Position numbers and translations under genes: made by a program
Notes under the pieces: generated by a model
What the model was told of the DNA's origin: nothing
Seen by the model: only the letters and a program-made list of their open reading frames with translations
Databases searched by the model: none
DNA from: Phenylobacterium sp.
GTDB taxonomy: Bacteria > Pseudomonadota > Alphaproteobacteria > Caulobacterales > Caulobacteraceae
Length of the DNA: 45,133 nt
Reading direction: 5' to 3'
Assembly: GCF_030651755.1 (NCBI RefSeq)
Contig: NZ_JAUSBZ010000053.1
Location: 1 to 45,133, forward strand
Shown here: piece by piece, positions 9,130 through 26,757 of the stretch
How positions within the stretch are numbered: position 1 is the first letter of the stretch
Layout: each line of letters opens with the position of its first letter

Positions 9130-9603
9130 CTATTGCGCGGGGGGTCGAACATGGGTGGCTGGCGAAGGGACGTTTTCTATTCGACAGATCATGCCAGCGC
9201 CGCCGGCCAAGGCCTCGTCGCCCGAGAGACGGCTGAGCGTCCCCTCATCTGTCCCCTTGGCCCACCATTGCCGGCCGCCGCCCACATAGCGCGCGCCGCT
9301 GGCCGAGCGGGCGAGCGTCATGAAATGGGTCTCTCCCCGATAGGTGAGCATGATGCTGTCTTCGGACCGGTAGACCACCTGCAGGCGCTCGCCATTCTCA
9401 CATCGATAGGTCTGAGCTTCCGAGCTGATATCCAGCCGGTCGCCCAGGGGCTTGGCGGCCGGCGCAGCGACCAGCTTTTTCGCCGGGGCTGGCGATCCGG
9501 CCGCGGCCCGTGGCTCAGGCGCTGGCTCACAGCCCCCCACAGTGAGGATGGCCAAGCCAATCAGGCTCGCGCAGCGCAGGGGAAAGGGGGCCTTGAGCGT
9601 CAT
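9130..9603 (-). CDS. MliC-like lipoprotein (C-type lysozyme inhibitor family)
   Basis: A 157-residue lipoprotein. The signal peptide ends in a lipobox TVGGC with Cys25, followed by a Pro/Ala-rich linker to about residue 50. The mature domain has the MliC/PliC pattern: YRCENGERLQVVY, then a strand with IMLTYRGETHFMTLARSASGARY, then QWWAKGTDEGTLSRL and a late cysteine (GMICRI) likely to pair with the Cys of YRC. MliC proteins sit in the outer membrane and inhibit C-type lysozymes through a loop with conserved Ser and Lys; the SASGARY and WWAKG elements match. Protection from host or protist lysozyme is inference. Confidence 0.85.
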   Translation of the reverse strand: MTLKAPFPLRCASLIGLAILTVGGCEPAPEPRAAAGSPAPAKKLVAAPAAKPLGDRLDISSEAQTYRCENGERLQVVYRSEDSIMLTYRGETHFMTLARSASGARYVGGGRQWWAKGTDEGTLSRLSGDEALAGGAGMICRIENVPSPATHVRPPAQ

Positions 9604-9673
9604 GGGACAGCAACTCCAGCCCCCAGGCTAACCCTTCCGCCGCGCCGGTCAAAACCCCTTGGCCGACTGCGGC

Positions 9674-10300
9674 CTAGGCATTGGCGGCAGCCTCCCAGAC
9701 CAGGAAGTCTTCATCCGCCAGCAGCCGCGCCACATAGGCTCCAGCCGTCCCGTCGTCGCCGTAGTCCGACAGGTCCTGGCCATAGGTTCGCAGGCGGGTG
9801 GCCACTGGTGTGAAGAAGGCGTCGGCGATGGACCATGGGCCGGCGAGAAAGGGGCCGCCATACTGGTCCAGCATCTGGCGCCACAACCGGACCAGTTTGC
9901 GAATGTCCTCCTGGGTGGCTGGGGAGAGCGCCCGAACCTCTGGCGGCTGGTCCAGGGCCATCGGGCACTCCCCGCGCAGTGAGGCGAATCCCGAGTGCAT
10001 CTGGGCGCTCGCAGCGCGGGCCTGGCCCCGGGCGCGCGGGTCGTCGGGCCACAGCCTGGCGGCGGGATACCTTTCCGCCAGATATTCGCAGATCGCCAGG
10101 GAGTCCCAGATCGTCAGATCCCCGTCTTTCAGAACGGGCGCCAGACCCGAGGGGGCATAGGGCGCAAGGTCGGCTTGGGTGGCCTCGCCCCGGCGAAGCT
10201 CGATCTCGGTTTCCGTGAAGGCCGCCCCTGTCTTTCGCAAGGCCAGCCACGGTCGCAGCGACCAGGTCGACCAGCGCCGGGTGCCGATAATCAGCTCCAT
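9674..10300 (-). CDS. Glutathione S-transferase family protein
   Basis: A 208-residue cytosolic GST-like protein. The N-terminal thioredoxin-like domain contains GTRRWSTWSLRPWLALRKTG (with a Ser at the usual catalytic position), SGLAPVLKDGDLTIWDSLAICEYLAE (cis-Pro and the glutathione-binding ES/DS element, here D-S). The helical C-domain contains GPWSIADAFFTPVATRL, the N-capping/hydrophobic-staple motif. An AGGAGG ribosome site lies a few bases before the ATG. The substrate is unknown. It is divergent from the MFS gene across about 100 bases. Confidence 0.92.
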   Translation of the reverse strand: MELIIGTRRWSTWSLRPWLALRKTGAAFTETEIELRRGEATQADLAPYAPSGLAPVLKDGDLTIWDSLAICEYLAERYPAARLWPDDPRARGQARAASAQMHSGFASLRGECPMALDQPPEVRALSPATQEDIRKLVRLWRQMLDQYGGPFLAGPWSIADAFFTPVATRLRTYGQDLSDYGDDGTAGAYVARLLADEDFLVWEAAANA

Positions 10301-10403
10301 CTGAACCTCCTAGAAATCTGGGTATCGCACTTGCCCAACGCCCGCAGAGCCTGTCTAGAGTGACTTAACGATAAGAAGCCGTCCGCCCAGGAGACAACGT
10401 CCC

Positions 10404-11789
10404 ATGACAGACACCACCGCCCCAGGGGCGCCAAACCCTGACGCCGCTGCGGCGCAACCTGAGGGCATCCAGCCCCTGGCCAAGCCGGCTCGGACCTACG
10501 CCCTAAGCCTGCTGCTTGGCATCTACACGATCAACTTCCTTGATCGGCAGGTGGTGAACATCCTGGCCGAGCCGATCAAGCTGGAGCTCGGCCTCGCCGA
10601 CTGGCAGCTCGGCCTGATGAGCGGTCTGGCTTTCGCCCTCTTCTATACCGTGCTGGGCATCCCGATCGCTCGGCTGGCGGAACGGGGTAATCGCCCCCTA
10701 ATCATCGGCACCGCCGTGGCGGTCTGGAGCGGCTTCACCGCCCTTTGCGGCGTGGCCCAGAACTTTGCTCAGCTGATCCTCTTCCGGATCGGCGTGGGTG
10801 TCGGCGAGGCGGGCTGCACGCCGCCGGCCCACTCCCTGATCAGCGACTATGTCCCCAAGGAAAACCGATCCACGGCGCTGGCCTTCTATTCCATGGGCAC
10901 CCCCATCGGCGGCCTCGCGGGTCTGATTCTGGGGGGGCTTATCGCTGACGCCTATGGCTGGCGCACGGCCTTCTTCGTGGCCGGCGTTCCGGGGATTCTG
11001 TTCGCCATCCTGGCCATCTTCACCCTGCCGGAGCCCCGCAAGGAACTCGCCCGCCGGGCCGTGAAAATCCAAGCCAACTCGGCGACCTTCCCCGAGACGA
11101 TGAAGTTCCTGAAGGGTCGCAAGACCTTCTGGTACATCTCGTTCGCCGCGGCGATCAAAGCCTTCATCGGCTACGGCCATGCCCCCTTCACCGCGTCCTT
11201 CTTCCTGCGGAACTATCCCGAACAGGTTCAGTCCCTGGCCTCCACGGTCGGCGCCACCGTGGGATACAATCTGCAGTCCATCGGCTTCCTCGGCCTGGCC
11301 CTGGGTCTGATGTCGGGCACCGCCGGCGCTCTGGGTTCCTGGCTCGGCGGCTTTGTGGCCGACAAGTTTGCGGCGCGCGACCTGCGCGCCCAGATGATCG
11401 CCCCGGCGCTGGCCTCGCTGATCACCATCCCCATCTTCATCGGCGCCATGACCATCGGCAACGTCCCGCTCGCGCTGCTGCTCCTGACGGTGAACGGCCT
11501 CCTGGGGACCATCTGGTACGGCCCGGTCTATGGCACGGCCCAGTCGATCGTCCCGCCGCACATGCGGGCCACCACCTCGGCCATTCTGCTGTTCATCATC
11601 AACCTCATCGGCCTTGGCCTGGGTCCCCTCGCCGTGGGCCTGCTCAGCGACTATTTCGCCGTTGGGATGGGCATGGGATCGGGCGATGGGGTGCGTTGGG
11701 CGCTCATCGTCTCGGCCAGCTTCGGCCTGGTGGCCTTCTACTGCTTCTGGCGCGCCACCCAGACCATCCGCGAAGATCACGTCGGCTGA
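10404..11789 (+). CDS. MFS transporter (spinster-like)
   Basis: A 461-residue, 12-helix major facilitator. The N-terminal pattern YTINFLDRQVVNILAEPIKLEL, then DWQLGLMSGLAFALFYTVLGIPIARLAERGNR (the A motif), then GVGVGEAGCTPPAHSLISDYVP and YGWRTAFFVAGVPGILFA, is the signature of the large group of sphingomonad/Caulobacterales carriers often found near TonB receptors and catabolic genes. The second half is interrupted by a longer extra-membrane insertion around residues 270-300. The substrate is unknown. A GGAG site precedes the ATG at 10404, and a strong hairpin follows the stop. Confidence 0.92.
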   Translation: MTDTTAPGAPNPDAAAAQPEGIQPLAKPARTYALSLLLGIYTINFLDRQVVNILAEPIKLELGLADWQLGLMSGLAFALFYTVLGIPIARLAERGNRPLIIGTAVAVWSGFTALCGVAQNFAQLILFRIGVGVGEAGCTPPAHSLISDYVPKENRSTALAFYSMGTPIGGLAGLILGGLIADAYGWRTAFFVAGVPGILFAILAIFTLPEPRKELARRAVKIQANSATFPETMKFLKGRKTFWYISFAAAIKAFIGYGHAPFTASFFLRNYPEQVQSLASTVGATVGYNLQSIGFLGLALGLMSGTAGALGSWLGGFVADKFAARDLRAQMIAPALASLITIPIFIGAMTIGNVPLALLLLTVNGLLGTIWYGPVYGTAQSIVPPHMRATTSAILLFIINLIGLGLGPLAVGLLSDYFAVGMGMGSGDGVRWALIVSASFGLVAFYCFWRATQTIREDHVG

Positions 11790-17476: not shown

Positions 17477-18685
17477 ATGCGCAACCCCATGTCGTCCGCC
17501 GAGTCCGCCCTGCCGCCCCCCAGTCCTCTCGCCGTTCCTGTCCTGATGGGCGTGGTGTTCCTGAGCCTGATCGGCTTTGGGGTGGTGATCCCGCTCCTGC
17601 CCTTCTACGCCGTGGTGTTCAGCGCCACCGCCTGGCAAGTCACCCTGATGTTTGCGGTGTTCGCCGCCGGCCAGTTCTTCGGCGAGCTGATCTGGGGGCG
17701 GTTGTCGGACAAGATCGGCCGAAAGCCGGTGATCCTCGGCACCATTTTGATGGCCGCGCTCGGCTATGTGGCCCTGGCCTATGCGCCGAACATCTGGTTC
17801 GCCGTCGCCGCCCGCGCCGTGGCCGGAGTGTTCAGCGGCAATATCTCCACCATCCAGGGCTATATCGTCGATGTTACGCCGAAGGAAAAACTGGCGGGCC
17901 GCCTGGGTCTGATCGGCTCAGCCTTTGGCATCGGTTTTGTCGTCGGCCCCCTGCTGGGCGGCCTGTTGGCCCGTCCTGAACTGGGCGCCGCCGGCTTTCA
18001 GCCGCCGCTGCTCACCGCTGCGGCGCTCTGCGTCGCCGGCGCCTTGGGCGCGGCGGTCTTTGTGCGCGAGAGCCGGACGCGGGCGGCGGCTGGCGCGGCG
18101 CGCCCAGGCCCCCTTCAGGCCCTGGCCCACACCCTGAGCGACCCGACCTTGCGGCGGCTGATGGGCGGGACCTTCCTCTCCTTCGCCGGCTTCTCGGCCA
18201 TGTGGTCCATCTTCGGCCTCTGGGGCGCGGCGGAATATGGCTGGGACCCGAGAATGATCGGCTTCGTCATGGCGTTGACCGGCGTCGCGGCGGCGGCCAG
18301 CCAGGGCCTGCTGGCCGGGTGGGCCGTGCGGAAGATCGGTGAGCGGCCGACGGTGCTGATCGGCCTGACCGTGACCTCCGTCTTCCTGTTCCTGGAGGCC
18401 CTGGGGCCGCCGGTCACCGTGGCCATCATTCTGATGATCATTCTGGTGATCGGCCACACCACCAGCCAACCAGCCACCTCATCCCTGATCTCCCGCGCCG
18501 CCCCGGCTGACCGTCAGGGCGAGACCCTGGGCGCCAACAACGCTTCCAGCGCTGCGGCCCGGGTGCTGGGTCCGGTCATGGCGGGATTCCTGTTTTCAGG
18601 GGTCGGGACCTGGGCGCCCTTTGTCCTGGCCGGCGTTCTGATCCTACCCGCCGCCGTCCTGATCGGTCTGGGGGGACGGCGCTGA
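17477..18685 (+). CDS. MFS transporter, TetA-like drug-efflux type
   Basis: A 402-residue 12-helix major facilitator. Signature elements: SLIGFGVVIPLLPFYAVVF (first helix of TetA/YajR-type exporters), GELIWGRLSDKIGRKPVIL (motif A), ARAVAGVFSGNISTIQGYI, and GSAFGIGFVVGPLLGGLLA (motif C, typical of antiporters). The C-terminal half contains GHTTSQPATSSLISRAAPADRQGETLGAN. The pattern favours proton-coupled efflux of small molecules; the substrate is unknown. Its last 42 bases overlap the 3' end of the opposing hemoglobin gene. Confidence 0.92.
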   Translation: MRNPMSSAESALPPPSPLAVPVLMGVVFLSLIGFGVVIPLLPFYAVVFSATAWQVTLMFAVFAAGQFFGELIWGRLSDKIGRKPVILGTILMAALGYVALAYAPNIWFAVAARAVAGVFSGNISTIQGYIVDVTPKEKLAGRLGLIGSAFGIGFVVGPLLGGLLARPELGAAGFQPPLLTAAALCVAGALGAAVFVRESRTRAAAGAARPGPLQALAHTLSDPTLRRLMGGTFLSFAGFSAMWSIFGLWGAAEYGWDPRMIGFVMALTGVAAAASQGLLAGWAVRKIGERPTVLIGLTVTSVFLFLEALGPPVTVAIILMIILVIGHTTSQPATSSLISRAAPADRQGETLGANNASSAAARVLGPVMAGFLFSGVGTWAPFVLAGVLILPAAVLIGLGGRR

Positions 18686-19135
18686 ACGTAGGGGCGGAAG
18701 TTCGCCCCGCGCCATGGCCATGCCCATCTGCAGGCTACGGGCGATCATCTCCGCTCGAGCGATGAACATGTCCGCCGCCAGCGGCGGACATGTCTCCCGC
18801 GCCGTCGCCCGCCAGATCTCCAGCCAATGGGCGAAGTGGGGTCCGCCGACACCGACCAGCCGCGCGTGAGCGGGCATGGGCGCGCCCTTGAACCGCCCCG
18901 TCATCAGCAGGACCGAGGACCAGAAGTCGCACAGCTTAGCCAGATGGGCGTCCCAGTCGTCGATCTTGGCCTCGAAGATGGGACCCAGCATGGGGTCGTC
19001 CCGCACCCGGCCGTAGAAGGCGTGAACCTGGGCGCCGATCAGCTCTTCGGTGACACCGACGGCGACGCCTGGCGCCTCCAGTCGCCGACGGGCGGCCGCG
19101 GCGGCGCGGTGGGCCATCAGTTCCTCATCCTGCAT
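18644..19135 (-). CDS. Group III truncated hemoglobin
   Basis: A heme protein of 163 residues from ATG 19135; alternative starts at 19171 or 19117 exist, and GAGGAAC lies just before the latter. It matches group III globins: HAFYGRVRDDPMLGPIFE (B-helix Tyr41), WDAHLAKLCDFWSSVLLMTGRFKGAPMPAHARL (His90, the proximal ligand), then PHFAHWLEIW. Group III globins are linked to oxygen or nitric-oxide chemistry; a role in NO detoxification is inference. The C-terminal tail is Pro/Ser-rich and is encoded over the end of the facing MFS gene. Confidence 0.9.
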   Translation of the reverse strand: MQDEELMAHRAAAAARRRLEAPGVAVGVTEELIGAQVHAFYGRVRDDPMLGPIFEAKIDDWDAHLAKLCDFWSSVLLMTGRFKGAPMPAHARLVGVGGPHFAHWLEIWRATARETCPPLAADMFIARAEMIARSLQMGMAMARGELPPLRSAPSPQTDQDGGG

Positions 19136-19220
19136 GAGGCCATTGTGCCGCGGGTCCGTCCCGCCCGCCACTCAGGGCGACTACCGAGGCCCTTTGTCGG
19201 TCGACAGGCGGAAGGCGGCC

Positions 19221-21107
19221 TCAGCCATAGGCCTGACGAAGGCGCTCGGTCATCTGCCGGGGCGTCGATGGGCCTTGCGAACCCTGCGTCCCCGATCCCT
19301 CACTAATGCGGAACTCACCCACCAGCCGGCTCAGCTCGGCGGCCTCGCCGCGCAGGGCGTGGCTGGCGGCGGTCGCCTGCTCGACCATGGCGGCGTTCTG
19401 CTGGGTCACCTGATCCATGCGGTTGACCGCATCATTGACCTCGTTGAGGCCCACAGCCTGCTCCTGAGCGCTGGCGGCGATTTCGCCCACCAGAGCGTCG
19501 ATCTGCTCCACCTGCACGACAATCTGGCGCAGGGCTGCGCCAGTCCGTCCGACCAGATCGACACCGGCGCCCACCTGTTGGGTGGAGGTGCTGATCAGGG
19601 TCTTGATCTCCTTGGCCGCATCGGCCGAACGCTGGGCCAGGGCCCGGACTTCGGAGGCGACCACGGCGAACCCGCGGCCGGCGTCGCCCGCGCGGGCGGC
19701 CTCAACCCCGGCGTTCAGGGCCAGCAGGTTGGTCTGGAAGGCGATTTCGTCGATCACACCGATAATCTGGGTGATTTCGGCCGAAGACTTCTCGATCCCG
19801 CCCATGGCGGCGATGGCCTGCTCGACGACCTTGCCCCCTTCGCCTGCGCCGGAGCGGGCGGTCAGCACGGCCGTGCGGGCATGACTGGCGCCTTCGGCGG
19901 ATTTGCGCACCGTGGCGGTGATCTCGTCCAGGGCCGCGGCGGTCTCTTCGAGGCTGGCCGCCTGCTGTTCGGTCCGCCGGGCGAGGTCGTCAGACGCGCC
20001 GGCGATCTCATCGGCGCCGGAGCTGATCTGGGTGACGTTGGCGCTGATCACCCCCATGGCGTCCCGCAGCTTGGCGACGGCGCCATTGAAGTCGGCGCGT
20101 AGCTGCTCGTACTCACTGGTGAAGGGGTCGGTGAGGCGCGAGGTGAGGTCGCCGTCCGACAGGCGCGACAGGCCTGTCGCCAGCGCCTGGACGACGGCGG
20201 CCTGGGCGGCCTGGGTGGCTGCGCGCTCCTGTTCGACCTGATCGCGCATGGCGGCTTCGCGCTGGCTACTGGCCTGTTGAGCCTGGTTCAGGGCGGCCAG
20301 GCTCCGTTGATTGTCCTGGAAGACCCGCAGGCCCCGCACGATGGCGCCCAGTTCGTCGCTGCGTTCCAGGCGGTCGAGATCCTGCGCGTCGTCGCCGGAC
20401 GCCAGGGCTTCAGCCGCGCCGGCGATACTGTCGATGGCCCGCCGTATCCCAAGCACGACCACCACTGACAGGCCCGCCACCGCCAGCAGGGTGATCAGGG
20501 ACCCGATCATGAAGATGCGCCCAGCAAGCTGACCTTGGGCCGCGCTCTGGGCGGCGCGCTGCTCGGCGCCGGACTGGATGGCGGCTGTCGCCTGCTCCAG
20601 GGTCTTGGTCATGCGGGCATAATGTTCTTCGAAGGGCTGGACGAAGGCCACCGCTGTGCCGAAGTCCACCGCCATCATTGAGCCCACGACCTCCACTCCG
20701 TCCCGGTAGTCGGTGAGGTCTTGGGCGAGCTCGGTGAACCTCGCCTGTTCGTCGGCTGGCAGGCGCGGTTTCAGCGCCTCCAGATCGGCCTTGATGGCGT
20801 CGACCTCGCCCACCAGCTCCACAAGCTCCGCCGAGGAATCCGGCGCTGTGAACGGATCGGCCGCGCCGGCCTGGCGTGTCAGCAGCTGATAAATGTTCAG
20901 GTGGGCCACCGCGACCCGCCGGGAGACCGCCGCCAGCTCCAGGCCAGCCTGCATGTCCTCATTGACGATCCGGTCCAGGGCCTGGGCCTGCTGCTGCTGG
21001 CTGATGAAGGCCCCGCCTGTGATCACCGCCAGCATCACCACGGCGAACAGGGGCGCGAGCGCCATCTTCACCACCAGGGACAGATCGGCGAAGCGAAGCG
21101 ATTTCAT
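19221..21107 (-). CDS. Methyl-accepting chemotaxis protein (operon-linked to a TonB receptor)
   Basis: From ATG 21107 it is 628 residues. A first membrane helix lies near residues 12-36, a helical periplasmic sensor of about 150 residues follows to residue ~190, and a second helix (FMIGSLITLLAVAGLSVVVVLGI) lies near 205-230. Next are a HAMP domain, a second HAMP-like segment (LATGLSRLSDGDLTSRL), methylation helices ([20 protein letters not shown]) and the signalling tip [21 protein letters not shown]. No CheR-binding pentapeptide is seen at the C-terminus. The gene lies downstream of a YfiR-like and a TonB-receptor gene on the same strand, so its sensor may read a periplasmic partner rather than a free ligand; this is inference. 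Confidence 0.95.
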   Translation of the reverse strand: MKSLRFADLSLVVKMALAPLFAVVMLAVITGGAFISQQQQAQALDRIVNEDMQAGLELAAVSRRVAVAHLNIYQLLTRQAGAADPFTAPDSSAELVELVGEVDAIKADLEALKPRLPADEQARFTELAQDLTDYRDGVEVVGSMMAVDFGTAVAFVQPFEEHYARMTKTLEQATAAIQSGAEQRAAQSAAQGQLAGRIFMIGSLITLLAVAGLSVVVVLGIRRAIDSIAGAAEALASGDDAQDLDRLERSDELGAIVRGLRVFQDNQRSLAALNQAQQASSQREAAMRDQVEQERAATQAAQAAVVQALATGLSRLSDGDLTSRLTDPFTSEYEQLRADFNGAVAKLRDAMGVISANVTQISSGADEIAGASDDLARRTEQQAASLEETAAALDEITATVRKSAEGASHARTAVLTARSGAGEGGKVVEQAIAAMGGIEKSSAEITQIIGVIDEIAFQTNLLALNAGVEAARAGDAGRGFAVVASEVRALAQRSADAAKEIKTLISTSTQQVGAGVDLVGRTGAALRQIVVQVEQIDALVGEIAASAQEQAVGLNEVNDAVNRMDQVTQQNAAMVEQATAASHALRGEAAELSRLVGEFRISEGSGTQGSQGPSTPRQMTERLRQAYG

Positions 21108-21176
21108 GTCAGGTCTCCGGTGGTCCATCGCCGATTTGACGGGGGTGCGCGCAGAAGAAGGCTGGAAAAGTAGACA

Positions 21177-21206
21177 GGGGACCGCGCCCTGCTCGACGCG
21201 GCCCCC
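21177..21206 (-). terminator. Hairpin between the TonB receptor and chemoreceptor genes
   Basis: On the minus-strand transcript, ten pairs (one G-U) form between 21197-21206 and 21177-21186 with a ten-base loop. It lies in the 148-base gap between the receptor stop and the chemoreceptor start, followed by a weak U-rich stretch (UACUUUU). It could partly terminate and thereby set the ratio of receptor to chemoreceptor. Confidence 0.4.
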
Positions 21207-21255
21207 TGGGGCGGCCCCACCCTCGGGGGAGGGGGGAGGATGGAGCCGATGGCGA

Positions 21256-23265
21256 TCACCAGTCCTTGCTGAGCGTCATGAACACCCGGCGCTCGGCGGC
21301 CAGGCCGCTGGTCTGGCGCTGGGCGTCGTCGAGCAGGTTCTGCCCGCTGACGGCGAGGGTCATGCCGTAGGGAAGCTCGCGGGCGACACGGCCGGCGAAG
21401 GTCATGTGGCCATCCACCGGCTGGAGCGCGGCGTTGTAGTAGAGCGCCTTGTCGCCTTCGTAGCGGGCGAAGGTGTCCACCGACCACAGGTCGTTGGACC
21501 AGCCGATGTTCAGGTTGGCCCGATGCTCGGGCGTGGTCGAAGCGAAGGCCGCATACCGGGTTGCGGCGTTGTAGCCGGCGTTAATCGACTCCTCGACGTC
21601 GGTGAAGACGTAGTTGGCGTTCCAATAGAAGCCGTCGGCGTAACGGCCCTCCGCGGTCAGCTCCACGCCCTTCATCTCGGACTCGCCGATGTTGACGAAG
21701 GTGTAGACCGGCAGACTGACGGGGGTGGCCGGCAGGTCGGCCTGGACCGCATTGGGCTGGCCTTTGATATCCTCGCTCTTCTGGGCGAAGAGGCGGATCC
21801 CGACCTTGCCGCCGAACTGGGGCATGTCGCGGTCATAGGCCAGGCCGAAATTGGTCACCACGGTAGGCTCAAGCGTCGGATTGCCGCCGAAAGCGCCGCG
21901 GAAGGTCGGGGTCACCGCCACCAGTTGCAGGCCGCCAAGATCCACCAGGGTCGGCAGCTGGACGCCGCGGGCGTAGGTGGCCCGGAAGGTGTCAGACGCC
22001 GTGGCGGTCCACACCGCGCCAAGATTGTAGGTGGTCTCCTCCAGGCTCCGATCCCAGAGGGCGTTGCCAAGCGGCGGCAGGCCGGCGGGGAAGACGCCTT
22101 CGCGCTTCAGCTCCAGGGAGTCGTAGCGGGCGGCTGCGGTCACCGCCAAGGCGTCGCTGACCTGCCAGTTCCACATGCCAGAGACCGAGGCCACGTCGTA
22201 GCTGATGGTCGCGCCGCGGACCGGGGCGGTGGGCATCTCGTTGTTGCGATGCTCCAGGCCCACCCGGAAGGTGTGCTGGGCGCCGACCTTGAACAGGTTC
22301 TGCAGGCTGAACACGCGGATGGTGTTCTCATACAGGGTCGGAACCGCGGCGATCTCGGTCTTGACCGTCAGATCGTTCTGATAGGCGGCCGCCTGGATCA
22401 GGCCGAACTGAGAATCCCAGGTCAGGGTGCCCTTGATCGAGTGGGCGAGATATTTGGCCGGAGCGTAGGCATAGGTCGAGATGATGTCGGTCTGCTTGGT
22501 GTTGGCGTAGCCGCCCTCCACCCGCAGCTCGAGCTTGTCGGTCAGTTGCGCCACAGTGTCGAGGTTGGCCGTCAGGCGTTCGGCGTCATAGAACAGGCGG
22601 TCGGCCGAACCGGTGTTGTTGTCCCACTCGTCCTGCTGCGATGCGCCGGCCGTCAGGCGGGCCGAAACGCGGTCGCCGAGCTTGACCGTGTGACCCAGGG
22701 CGAGTTCCCCGTAGCCGCCGGTTCCTGCCCGCGCAGTGGCGAAGCCCTCGTCGTCGAATTTCGGATTATAGGTGATGATGTTCACCACGCCGGCCACGGC
22801 GTTGAAGCCGAACAGGGCGGAGTTGGGTCCCTTCACCACCTCAATCTGGCGGATTTCCTCAAGGCGCACCGGCAAGGTCGACCAGGCCGTATAGCCATAG
22901 TGGTCGAGATAGGCCTGGCGGCCGTTGACCAGCACCAGCAGGCGAGCCGAACGGGCCTGGTTGTAGCCCCGCACGCCCACATCGGCGTGGCCGGCGCTCC
23001 AGGCCTGGATGTCGACCCCGGCCACGCGGGACAGGATGGTCGGCAGGTCAGTGGCGCCTGAGCGACGGATCGCCTCGGCGGAGATGATGTCCATATCGAC
23101 CGGCGCCTGGCTGGCGCGCTGCGGCGAGCCGGTGGCGCTGGTGGTCACCGGCTCATTGAACAGCATCTCGAGCGAGCCGTAGTCGATGGATTGAGCGCCG
23201 GCCGGCAGGGCGGCGGCGAGCACGAGGCCGGCGGCGGCGCCGGCGAACAAGAAGGACTTAGACAT
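21256..23265 (-). CDS. TonB-dependent receptor, signalling-module type
   Basis: A 669-residue outer-membrane receptor. Signal peptide MSKSFLFAGAAAGLVLAAALPAGAQS; then the short N-terminal element YGSLEMLFNEPVTTSATGSPQRASQAP (like the LExLMNxxVTSxSK start of receptors that occur with YfiR-type proteins); plug domain to about residue 170 with VDIQAWSAGHADVGVRGYN and IEVVKGPNSALFGFNAVAGVVNIIT; then the beta-barrel, ending in RRVFMTLSKDW with the expected terminal Trp. No N-terminal secretin/TonB-short signalling domain is present. It is 28 bases downstream of the YfiR-like gene and upstream of a chemoreceptor. Ligand unknown. Confidence 0.93.
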   Translation of the reverse strand: MSKSFLFAGAAAGLVLAAALPAGAQSIDYGSLEMLFNEPVTTSATGSPQRASQAPVDMDIISAEAIRRSGATDLPTILSRVAGVDIQAWSAGHADVGVRGYNQARSARLLVLVNGRQAYLDHYGYTAWSTLPVRLEEIRQIEVVKGPNSALFGFNAVAGVVNIITYNPKFDDEGFATARAGTGGYGELALGHTVKLGDRVSARLTAGASQQDEWDNNTGSADRLFYDAERLTANLDTVAQLTDKLELRVEGGYANTKQTDIISTYAYAPAKYLAHSIKGTLTWDSQFGLIQAAAYQNDLTVKTEIAAVPTLYENTIRVFSLQNLFKVGAQHTFRVGLEHRNNEMPTAPVRGATISYDVASVSGMWNWQVSDALAVTAAARYDSLELKREGVFPAGLPPLGNALWDRSLEETTYNLGAVWTATASDTFRATYARGVQLPTLVDLGGLQLVAVTPTFRGAFGGNPTLEPTVVTNFGLAYDRDMPQFGGKVGIRLFAQKSEDIKGQPNAVQADLPATPVSLPVYTFVNIGESEMKGVELTAEGRYADGFYWNANYVFTDVEESINAGYNAATRYAAFASTTPEHRANLNIGWSNDLWSVDTFARYEGDKALYYNAALQPVDGHMTFAGRVARELPYGMTLAVSGQNLLDDAQRQTSGLAAERRVFMTLSKDW

Positions 23266-23293
23266 GGGTGATGGCTCCTGGCGTCGCGCCGGC

Positions 23294-23821
23294 TCAGACT
23301 TCTTTGATCATCATGCGGAAGGCGGCCTTGAAGGCGGCGCCCACGGCCGAGGCCGTCGCACGATTGACGATGATTTCGACCTTGGGCTGGGTCGCCACGG
23401 CCATGACGCAGGCGCCGGAATTGGCGCAGGCGGCGTCTGACGAGATGGTGATGATCTTCTTGCTCTTGGCGGCGGCGCCGACGGCGGCGTAGTTCACGCC
23501 GGTCGTGACGAACAGGACCTGGGCGTTGGAGCCCGCGACGGCTCCGGCCTCGACCGCTGTACCCACCAGCTTGACGGCGCCGGCGTCATAGCCTGCGCCG
23601 ATGGCGGCCATGACGGCGTTCTTCTCGGCCACCGAGGCCGGTTTGGACGGGTCGAAGACGACCCCCATCCGGGTCGTTCCGGTCGGACCACCTTCCAGGA
23701 AGGTCAGGGCGCGACCTGCGACCTGCAGGTTCTTGGCGGCGTCAGCGTGGGCCACGGCCGGCAGGGCCAGCGCGGCGGCGCACAAAACAGCAAGCGCTGG
23801 CTTGGCGTAGCGTGTGAACAT
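23294..23821 (-). CDS. YfiR-like (DUF4154-like) periplasmic protein
   Basis: A 175-residue exported protein from ATG 23821 (GAGGGG upstream). Signal peptide with hydrophobic core LAVLCAAALALPAVAHA. The mature part has a parallel of YfiR/DUF4154: MGVVFDPSKP, then a helix (EKNAVMAAIGAG), QVLFVTTGVNYAAVGAAAKSKKIITISSDA, and a final KVEIIVNRATASAVGAAFKAAFRMM helix like the conserved xFxINxxAAxxAGLxISSxLL end. Two cysteines, Cys132 and Cys138, sit six apart and could form a disulfide. In Pseudomonas, YfiR is a periplasmic repressor of the diguanylate cyclase YfiN. The match is by pattern only and diverges, so moderate confidence. It is first in an operon with a TonB receptor and a chemoreceptor. 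Confidence 0.65.
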   Translation of the reverse strand: MFTRYAKPALAVLCAAALALPAVAHADAAKNLQVAGRALTFLEGGPTGTTRMGVVFDPSKPASVAEKNAVMAAIGAGYDAGAVKLVGTAVEAGAVAGSNAQVLFVTTGVNYAAVGAAAKSKKIITISSDAACANSGACVMAVATQPKVEIIVNRATASAVGAAFKAAFRMMIKEV

Positions 23822-24852: not shown

Positions 24853-26757
24853 GTGCATCGGTTCAAGATTTCCACGCGTATCGTTACTGGATTTCTATTT
24901 CTGCTTGTGCTCATGACGGGGCTGACCATCGGTTCGATCGCACAGATCAATCAGGTCAAGGACAACCTGGCTCAGATCAATCAGGTCAACAGCGTGAAGC
25001 AGCGCTATGCGATCAATTTCCGGGGTAGCGTCCATGACCGCGCGATCGCCATCCGAGACGTGGTGATCCTGGAGGATCCCCGGCAGGTGCAGGCGCAACT
25101 GGAGCTCATTGATAGGCTCGCCGCCGACTATGCGCAAAACGAGTCGCTGATGGCCGAGATGATGGCCTCCGCCTCCGCGGACGAGCAACAGATCGTCAAC
25201 GAGATCGCCGCCACCCAGGCCCGCACCAACCCCCTGGTCGCCCAGGTGATCAATCTGCAGTCCCAGGGCCAGACCGACGCGGCCCGCACCCTGCTCAACA
25301 GCGAGGTCGGCCCCCTGTTCGGGGAATGGCTGAAGACGATCAATGTTTTCATCGACCTTCAGGAGTCCCGCAATCAGGCCGTCGGCGGCCAGGTTGAGAA
25401 GGCGGCCAGCGGCTTCCAGACCCTGGCCCTCACCTCCCTCCTGGGCGCCGCCCTGCTGGCGGTTCTGGCCTCCTGGCTCACCACCCGTTCAATCACCCAG
25501 CCCGTCGACCGTCTGTCGCGGGTGATGTCCGTCCTGGCGGGCGGCGACTATCGAATCCCGGTGTCGGAAACCGAGCGTGGGGATGAGATCGGCGTCATGG
25601 CCCGCACCGTCGAAGTGTTCCGCCAGAACGGGCTGAAGGTGGCCGAACTCACCGCCGCCGAGACCGCCCGGGACGCGGCTGCCGCGGCCGAACGGCAGGC
25701 CAACGAGGCCGAGCGCGCCGAGGCCGCCCGGGCCCAGGCCCTGGTTGTCCAGACTCTGGCCGATGGTCTGGAGAACCTGTCCGCCGGCAAGCTGGACTTC
25801 ACCATCGATGTCGCCTTCCCCGAGGGCTATGAGGGCCTGCGCGTCAACTTCAACACCGCCATCGCCCGTCTGCACGACACCATCGCCACCCTCGACGCCT
25901 CCACCAGCAGCCTGCGCAGCAGCGCTCAGGAGGTCAGCTCCGGCGCTGACGAACTGTCCCGGCGCACCGAACAGCAGGCCGCCAGCCTGGAGGAGACCGC
26001 CGCGGCCCTGGAGCAGATCACCGTCACGGTCAGCAAGACCGCCGACGGCGCCCGACAGGCGCACGGCGTCGTCAACGCCGCCCGGGCCGACGCCCAGACC
26101 TCCGGCGAGATCGTCGCCGACGCCGTGGCGGCCATGGGTCATATCGAGAGCTCGGCCAATCAGATCAGCCAGATCATTGGGGTGATCGACGAGATCGCCT
26201 TCCAGACCAACCTTCTGGCCTTGAACGCCGGAGTCGAGGCCGCCCGGGCGGGAGAGGCCGGGCGCGGCTTCGCCGTCGTGGCCTCCGAGGTGCGGGCGCT
26301 CGCCCAACGCTCGGCCCAGGCCGCTAAGGAAATTAAGGTGCTGATCTCCAACTCCGCCCAGCAGGTGGGCGCGGGGGTGGATCTCGTGGGTAAGACCGGC
26401 GAGGCACTGCGGCGCATCGCCGGCCAGGTCAGCCAAATCACCGATCTGGTCACCGAGATCGCCGCCAGCGCTCAGGAGCAGGCGTCGGGCCTCGCCCAGG
26501 TGAACACCGCCGTCAGCCATATGGATCAGATGACCCAGCAGAACGCCGCCATGGTCGAGGAATCCACCGCCGCCAGTCGGACGCTCTCAGAACAGTCCCT
26601 TGAACTGTCCCAGCTGGTGACCGGCTTCCAGATCAGCCGGGTCCGGATGCAGGTCGTAACCCCGCGGGCGAAGCCCCGGCTCTCCGTCATCCGCCAAGGC
26701 GCGACCATGCGCAAGGTGGCGGTCGATGCGGCCCCTGACCGTTGGACCGACTTCTAG
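24853..26757 (+). CDS. Methyl-accepting chemotaxis protein
   Basis: A 634-residue chemoreceptor, GTG start. Residues 1-8 are basic; the first membrane helix ([23 protein letters not shown]) is followed by a four-helix-bundle periplasmic sensor of about 155 residues with [21 protein letters not shown], the pattern of 4HB_MCP_1 domains. The second helix ([19 protein letters not shown]) leads to HAMP ([22 protein letters not shown]), a helical linker, a second HAMP-like part, and a signalling tip [21 protein letters not shown]. The C-terminus (RWTDF) does not look like a CheR-binding pentapeptide. It parallels the minus-strand chemoreceptor 3.7 kb away; no che genes are in the window. A perfect hairpin closes the gene. 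Confidence 0.95.

Follow-up and report, generated by a model that had tools for sequence, protein, structure and literature searches.

The 45,133-nucleotide contig of Phenylobacterium sp. analysed here (NZ_JAUSBZ010000053.1; hereafter the window) carries three consecutive genes on the minus strand, encoding a YfiR-like periplasmic protein (23294..23821), a TonB-dependent outer-membrane receptor (TBDR; 21256..23265) and a chemoreceptor of the methyl-accepting chemotaxis protein type (MCP; 19221..21107). An earlier note on this DNA had described this order, a gap of 28 bases between the first two genes and a gap of 148 bases with a hairpin before the third, all of which can be read directly from the sequence, the longer gap being measured up to 21107, where the MCP probably begins. 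It had also suggested a possible outer-membrane-to-chemotaxis module, an interpretation that is supported by the conservation of the trio and whose mechanism is put forward below as a proposal. In the genomes compared, the conserved set comprises a divergent YfiR-like protein, a TBDR distantly related to TOL_0244 and an MCP, mostly with a particular four-helix-bundle sensor. The module is conserved beyond chance and its parts are of known kinds.

The YfiR-like open reading frame (ORF) encodes 175 amino acids, comprising a hydrophobic leader peptide ending in AHA and one alpha/beta domain, with cysteines C132 and C138, the second of which is invariant in 38 aligned relatives. Its match to DUF4154 (Pfam PF13689) covers residues 91-163 only and lies below the cut-off (E 5.3e-4; 20.5 bits versus 24.9), and among nine relatives of the same branch two pass (27.7 bits at locus L065 and 28.5 bits at L069), four fall below and three have no match. 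A YfiR fold was found for the window protein. The YfiR label is weak by sequence alone and is supported by the fold and by the two passing relatives. The Caulobacter YfiR-like protein at L043 (10001-10591) contains a repeat of roughly 33 residues within its sequence.

The 669-residue receptor contains a plug (1.7e-18, 67.5 bits) and a barrel (7.7e-30, 105.5 bits), both over their cut-offs. Its best NCBIfam match is the TOL_0244 family (NF053590; 9e-44), at 150.1 bits versus a cut-off of 645, and the same family is also the best match, again below the cut-off, of four more receptors of the branch (127-150 bits). Against this family, scores of 519, 648 and 710 bits are reached by three receptors encoded next to ordinary DUF4154 genes, so that the branch of the window receptor appears to be a distantly related sister group of the TOL_0244-type receptors. 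The mature N-terminus SIDYGSLEMLFNEPVTTSATG (23128..23190, minus strand) precedes and overlaps the probable TonB-box region and is found in most branch receptors with the N-terminus printed, and a related form (SLEELM..VTSxS) occurs in many ordinary YfiR-linked receptors, these N-termini being judged from printed sequences of which a few rows showed another region. The likeness of the receptor N-terminus to YfiR-linked receptors, noticed earlier, thus holds in kind, and the receptors over the family cut-off at L089 and L109 adjoin ordinary YfiR genes. The segment may function in docking. No count is claimed for this N-terminus, as one regular expression proved overly strict, matching 5 of 93 linked and 0 of 8 unlinked receptors, and a more permissive one matched 39 of 81.

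The TOL_0243/TOL_0244 type (NF053591 for the YfiR-like protein, NF053590 for the TBDR) is the nearest family of the window receptor and has a related N-terminal segment; in the sampled genomes its receptors have ordinary YfiR and histidine kinase genes as neighbours. It differs from the branch described here in that all five branch receptors score below 645 bits and in that an MCP output is found at none of the 40 ordinary loci discussed below. Locus L089 (G817), from the window's own family, combines a full TOL_0244 receptor (710 bits) with an ordinary YfiR and a histidine kinase, and represents a kinase version of the relay. According to the accessible part of the published work, TOL_0244 of T. 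oleivorans is sevenfold upregulated on n-C28 alkane relative to Tween 80 and has a similarity of 40.3% to OmpS (PMC6304351). OmpS belongs to alkane chemotaxis in Alcanivorax dieselolei and is linked to the window receptor via TOL_0244; an alkane ligand is not inferred for the window receptor from 150 bits.

The MCP consists of a first transmembrane helix, a periplasmic four-helix bundle, a second transmembrane helix, a HAMP region in two stretches (9e-8, 32.8 bits) and an MCP signalling domain (MCPsignal; 2.4e-53, 181 bits), the last two over their cut-offs. Its start is given as 21128 in the ORF list and is probably 21107, as relatives align from this position and GGAG lies a few bases upstream. 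The sensor region (20484..21107, minus strand) spans 208 residues including both transmembrane helices. It matches 4HB_MCP_1 (PF12729) below the cut-off (E 0.0025; 17.9 bits versus 27), and its structural model is a four-helix bundle with four main helices (pLDDT, the model confidence score, 88.1). The best Foldseek matches of the model are MCP sensors, including Vc1313 (TMt 0.82) and Tar (0.71), none at E of 1e-3 or lower. The motif SMMAVDFGTAVAFVQPFEEHY (20619..20681, minus strand) holds M144, D148, F149 and P158, four of the six invariant columns in an alignment of ten linked sensors, and in the model these residues lie at or close to the interruption between helix 3 and helix 4. From the topology common to bundles of this kind, that end of the sensor would be expected to point away from the membrane.

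The earlier note had made its proposal depend on conserved linkage of the MCP to the other two genes, and this linkage is present in Phenylobacterium, in two Caulobacter genomes and in Hirschia. YfiR is found in 14 of 101 Phenylobacterium genomes, the same number as contain an orthologue of the MCP N-terminus (at least 54% identity); any match to that N-terminus occurs in 47. In 13 genomes YfiR and MCP are adjacent with a TBDR between them (G000, G072, G024, G070, G061, G050, G033, G099, G001, G009, G066, G068 and G038, the MCP contig of G066 holding only the last 24 YfiR residues), and the fourteenth YfiR genome, G042, has YfiR and TBDR followed by the contig end. Co-occurrence of the two orthologues (13 genomes with both, one with each alone and 86 with neither) gives a Fisher value of 2e-14 in a test that, like the Fisher tests below, ignores kinship. 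Upstream of a single MCP, the three loci L035 (= L055), L037 (= L056) and L051 each carry two YfiR-TBDR pairs that are separated by other genes or ORFs, and two outer-membrane receptors may here feed one chemoreceptor. Hirschia maritima also carries the trio. In Caulobacter, YfiR is found in 23 of 75 genomes and a linked MCP of this sensor type in G859 and G918 only, where the linked sensors score 263 and 223 bits, respectively, versus 104-189 for unlinked ones. That the MCP-less pairs in Caulobacter might act on an MCP encoded away from them was considered and set aside: some MCP of the sensor type is present in 21 of 23 genomes with YfiR versus 35 of 52 without (Fisher 0.04), a difference that is too weak and is confounded by completeness and kinship.

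In a sample of 385 alphaproteobacterial genomes, the YfiR profile matches in 11 genomes including the window's own, with 12 foreign loci in 10 genomes. An MCP adjoins the pair at five of these 12, in the order YfiR-TBDR-MCP in G226, G448 and G183, MCP-YfiR-TBDR in G371 and TBDR-YfiR-MCP in G404, versus about 0.1 expected when genes per genome are taken as bases/1000 (Poisson 8e-8). In a sample of 398 genomes from the phylum, which overlaps the class sample and is not counted with it, the YfiR profile matches in six genomes and DUF4154 in 94, the window's own included. Forty ordinary DUF4154 loci from these 94 genomes were hand-picked across families, several from one genome (G570, G404, G705 and G645), and outputs were assigned with a few phmmer probes over three genes on each side, some labels falling in the same or overlapping ORFs. 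A TBDR is near 26 of these loci, a histidine kinase near 21 and GGDEF/EAL proteins near 11, with no output recognised at eight, two of them at contig ends. An MCP was found within three genes at none of the 40, compared with five of 12 for the divergent YfiR (Fisher 3e-4, with kinship and several loci per genome entering the comparison).

These neighbourhoods bear on an alternative in which the MCP senses the compound brought in by the TBDR, directly or via a ligand-loaded YfiR-like binding protein, so that a shared ligand keeps the genes together and the TBDR is an importer only. That ordinary YfiR-TBDR pairs adjoin kinases and GGDEF/EAL proteins points to an adaptor role in signalling and not solely to transport, and a shared ligand is considered an unlikely, though still serious, explanation. 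The neighbour scans were not designed for finding transporters. At L066, a gene for a family-5 solute-binding protein (9533-11224) directly follows the TBDR of an MCP-YfiR-TBDR locus.

The sensor region is common to most YfiR-linked MCPs of other families, as indicated by profile matches. Profile A2, built from Caulobacteraceae and Hirschia sensors including four unlinked paralogues, with the tested sequences excluded, matches the linked MCPs of G226, G448, G371 and G404 at 148, 127, 108 and 74 bits and has no match to the trio MCP of G183 or to a second MCP in the window. When A2 is searched against whole genomes, each of these four, which hold 8, 35, 34 and 10 MCPs, respectively, gives its linked MCP as the top match. 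Profile A3, built from linked sensors including those of the same four genomes, gives 28 places in 21 of the 385 alphaproteobacterial genomes, five of them linked MCPs already known. Among 13 of the other 23 places inspected, two are further sets of TBDR, YfiR-like protein and MCP (contig 2 of G275 and contig 10 of G371), with YfiR too divergent for the first YfiR search and for Pfam; G275 and G371 share a genus code, and L081 ends at a contig end. The remaining 11 are not beside a TBDR, and two of those are kinases. Exclusivity of the sensor to YfiR loci is ruled out by related sensors in MCPs that adjoin SDR and DUF72 genes in Phenylobacterium, in MCPs that adjoin a second MCP at three Caulobacter loci, and in the kinases.

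In a tree of 43 sensors, which has several long branches and unsure deep joins, the unlinked Caulobacteraceae paralogues form one clade (98/99) nested in the linked sensors. Only four changes of the linked label are needed, which suggests that independent origins were few or none, and together with the close kinship of the Caulobacteraceae loci this would agree with one ancestral cluster passed on or transferred as a block, the MCP having no functional meaning in it. The gene order varies, with the MCP leading in G371 and YfiR in the middle in G404, in a way that a passive block would not explain, and G183 has the YfiR-TBDR-MCP layout with a different sensor; inheritance as a block is accordingly regarded as very improbable.

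The gap between receptor and MCP contains two tandem hairpins on the minus strand (21212..21248 and 21175..21208), the second with 14 pairs, 11 of them G-C, followed by TCTACTTTTC. The 148-base gap folds better than all of 200 dinucleotide shuffles (z -2.74), and strong hairpins of differing sequence are found in the window gap and in the 55-58 base gaps of six Caulobacteraceae relatives, with z from -2.5 to -6.2 for the seven. The gaps of L065 and L070 are not clearly better folded than their shuffles (z -0.35 and -1.28). At all 12 MCP-less Caulobacter loci inspected the hairpin is followed by T residues (three or more together), and in Caulobacteraceae loci with a linked MCP and a short gap the T run is absent or short. 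This pattern would agree with a lowered read-through into the MCP gene. A role of the hairpin as a simple terminator was set aside, as the three first-copy TBDRs of tandem loci, which likewise have no MCP directly after them, have no such T run, and Hirschia and L029 have one before an MCP. The receptor and MCP genes may be co-transcribed, or transcription may end in the gap.

Divergent from the trio in the window lies the second MCP (MCP2; 24853-26757, plus strand), with a stronger 4HB_MCP_1 match (4e-15) than the trio MCP. It is present beside the trio in the close relatives L022 and L024-L027 and was not seen in L023 or L029. MCP2 was rejected as the trio partner, as its sensor fails the sensor profile and, among the loci compared for it, it adjoins the cluster only in close relatives. 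On the other side, 49 bases past the trio MCP, a 175-residue ORF (18644-19171, minus strand) without a Pfam or NCBIfam match also follows the MCP in L022, L023, L024, L026, L029 and L054; it may represent a truncated haemoglobin.

Taken together, the data favour, by a modest degree, a reading of the trio as a relay of three components that leads from the outer membrane to the flagellar motor. Our best guess at its docking mechanism is that the TBDR would bind or import a ligand and that the hold of its periplasmic face, perhaps of the N-terminal segment, on the YfiR-like protein would change as a result. The YfiR-like protein would then bind, or release, the membrane-distal tip of the MCP bundle, the site of the conserved motif, and the MCP would alter CheA activity and hence swimming. 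Such a relay would be akin to YfiB-YfiR-YfiN, with the TBDR in place of YfiB and the MCP in place of the diguanylate cyclase.

Several observations weigh against this relay. Besides the weak identity of YfiR by sequence, no YfiR was among the matches in a profile search of PDB sequences, and the fold is common to the YfiR-like protein and ABC (ATP-binding cassette) substrate-binding proteins. The trio MCP of G183 carries an unrelated sensor, and in the whole-genome A2 search of G226 an unlinked MCP is nearly equal to the linked one (134 versus 151 bits). The sensor type also occurs with no YfiR or TBDR nearby, with some match in 47 of 101 Phenylobacterium and 56 of 75 Caulobacter genomes, and is found on histidine kinases of two other alphaproteobacteria (L078, 6331-9177; L079, 6508-8607) with no YfiR gene recognised beside them. 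Three of the 12 foreign loci have another output, GGDEF/EAL in G426 and G434 and a hybrid histidine kinase in G337, and four have no adjacent signalling gene (G215, two extra copies in G404, and G135). One extra G404 copy has an MCP two genes off on the opposite strand with an unrelated sensor, and no TBDR was recognised at the other or at the G135 locus. A hairpin separates the TBDR and MCP genes, and in the Hirschia gap and the long L029 gap the hairpin with its T run is terminator-like. Of the 23 YfiR-bearing Caulobacter genomes, 21 have no MCP of this sensor type linked to the pair. This count rests on the sensor search (E up to 1e-20); some of these genomes are draft assemblies in short contigs, and MCPs with a different sensor could be detected only at the loci whose gene order was mapped (L030-L034, L038-L043, L088 and L159-L161). 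Finally, Phenylobacterium G025 (L054) has the trio MCP and the usual flanking genes with no YfiR, TBDR or MCP2, through either loss or an assembly join.

The MCP-less Caulobacter pairs, the MCP standing alone in G025 and the possibility of separate transcription would suit an arrangement in which the partner addressed by the YfiR-TBDR pair is encoded at a distant locus and the neighbouring MCP is kept for unrelated reasons. The linkage nevertheless recurs in several families, with the genes in three different orders, far above the expected count, and the linked sensors rank first in whole genomes, which makes a partner elsewhere improbable.

Chemoreceptors are generally thought to sense periplasmic ligands, directly or via binding proteins of inner-membrane transporters, and maltose-binding protein (MBP) acting on Tar provides, besides PstS, a precedent for a periplasmic protein on a chemoreceptor. 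In YfiBNR of Pseudomonas aeruginosa, comprising periplasmic YfiR, the outer-membrane lipoprotein YfiB and the inner-membrane diguanylate cyclase YfiN, YfiR represses YfiN and is sequestered by the outer-membrane partner, as described in the accessible part of PMC4887326. The trio differs from the system described there in having a TBDR rather than the OmpA/Pal-like YfiB, a four-helix-bundle MCP rather than the periplasmic PAS and GGDEF domains of YfiN, and a YfiR-like protein whose DUF4154 match is below the cut-off. In phosphate chemotaxis of P. aeruginosa, PstS docks on the sensor of the CtpL chemoreceptor (PMC4926252, accessible part), a likeness to the docking proposed here; PstS serves an inner-membrane ABC transporter, whereas the trio has an outer-membrane TBDR and a YfiR-like adaptor. 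In the literature searched, which left most subscription papers outside so that prior publication is possible, no publication joins YfiR, TBDR and MCP as a module, and the single paper with all three words is, from its accessible part, an oxidant-resistance screen in E. coli (PMC8228696). Relative to this literature, an MCP as the output of a YfiR-TBDR pair is new.

On a broader level, there could be a new class of input to chemotaxis, in which TBDRs are the sensors and act via a YfiR-type adaptor that docks on a four-helix-bundle chemoreceptor domain dedicated to this role, a reading for and against which we hold the case to be evenly balanced. If true, a TBDR as sensor would let cells track large or scarce compounds upon their capture at the outer membrane, and the YfiR relay would be a general adaptor that can have cyclases, kinases or the chemotaxis array as its output.
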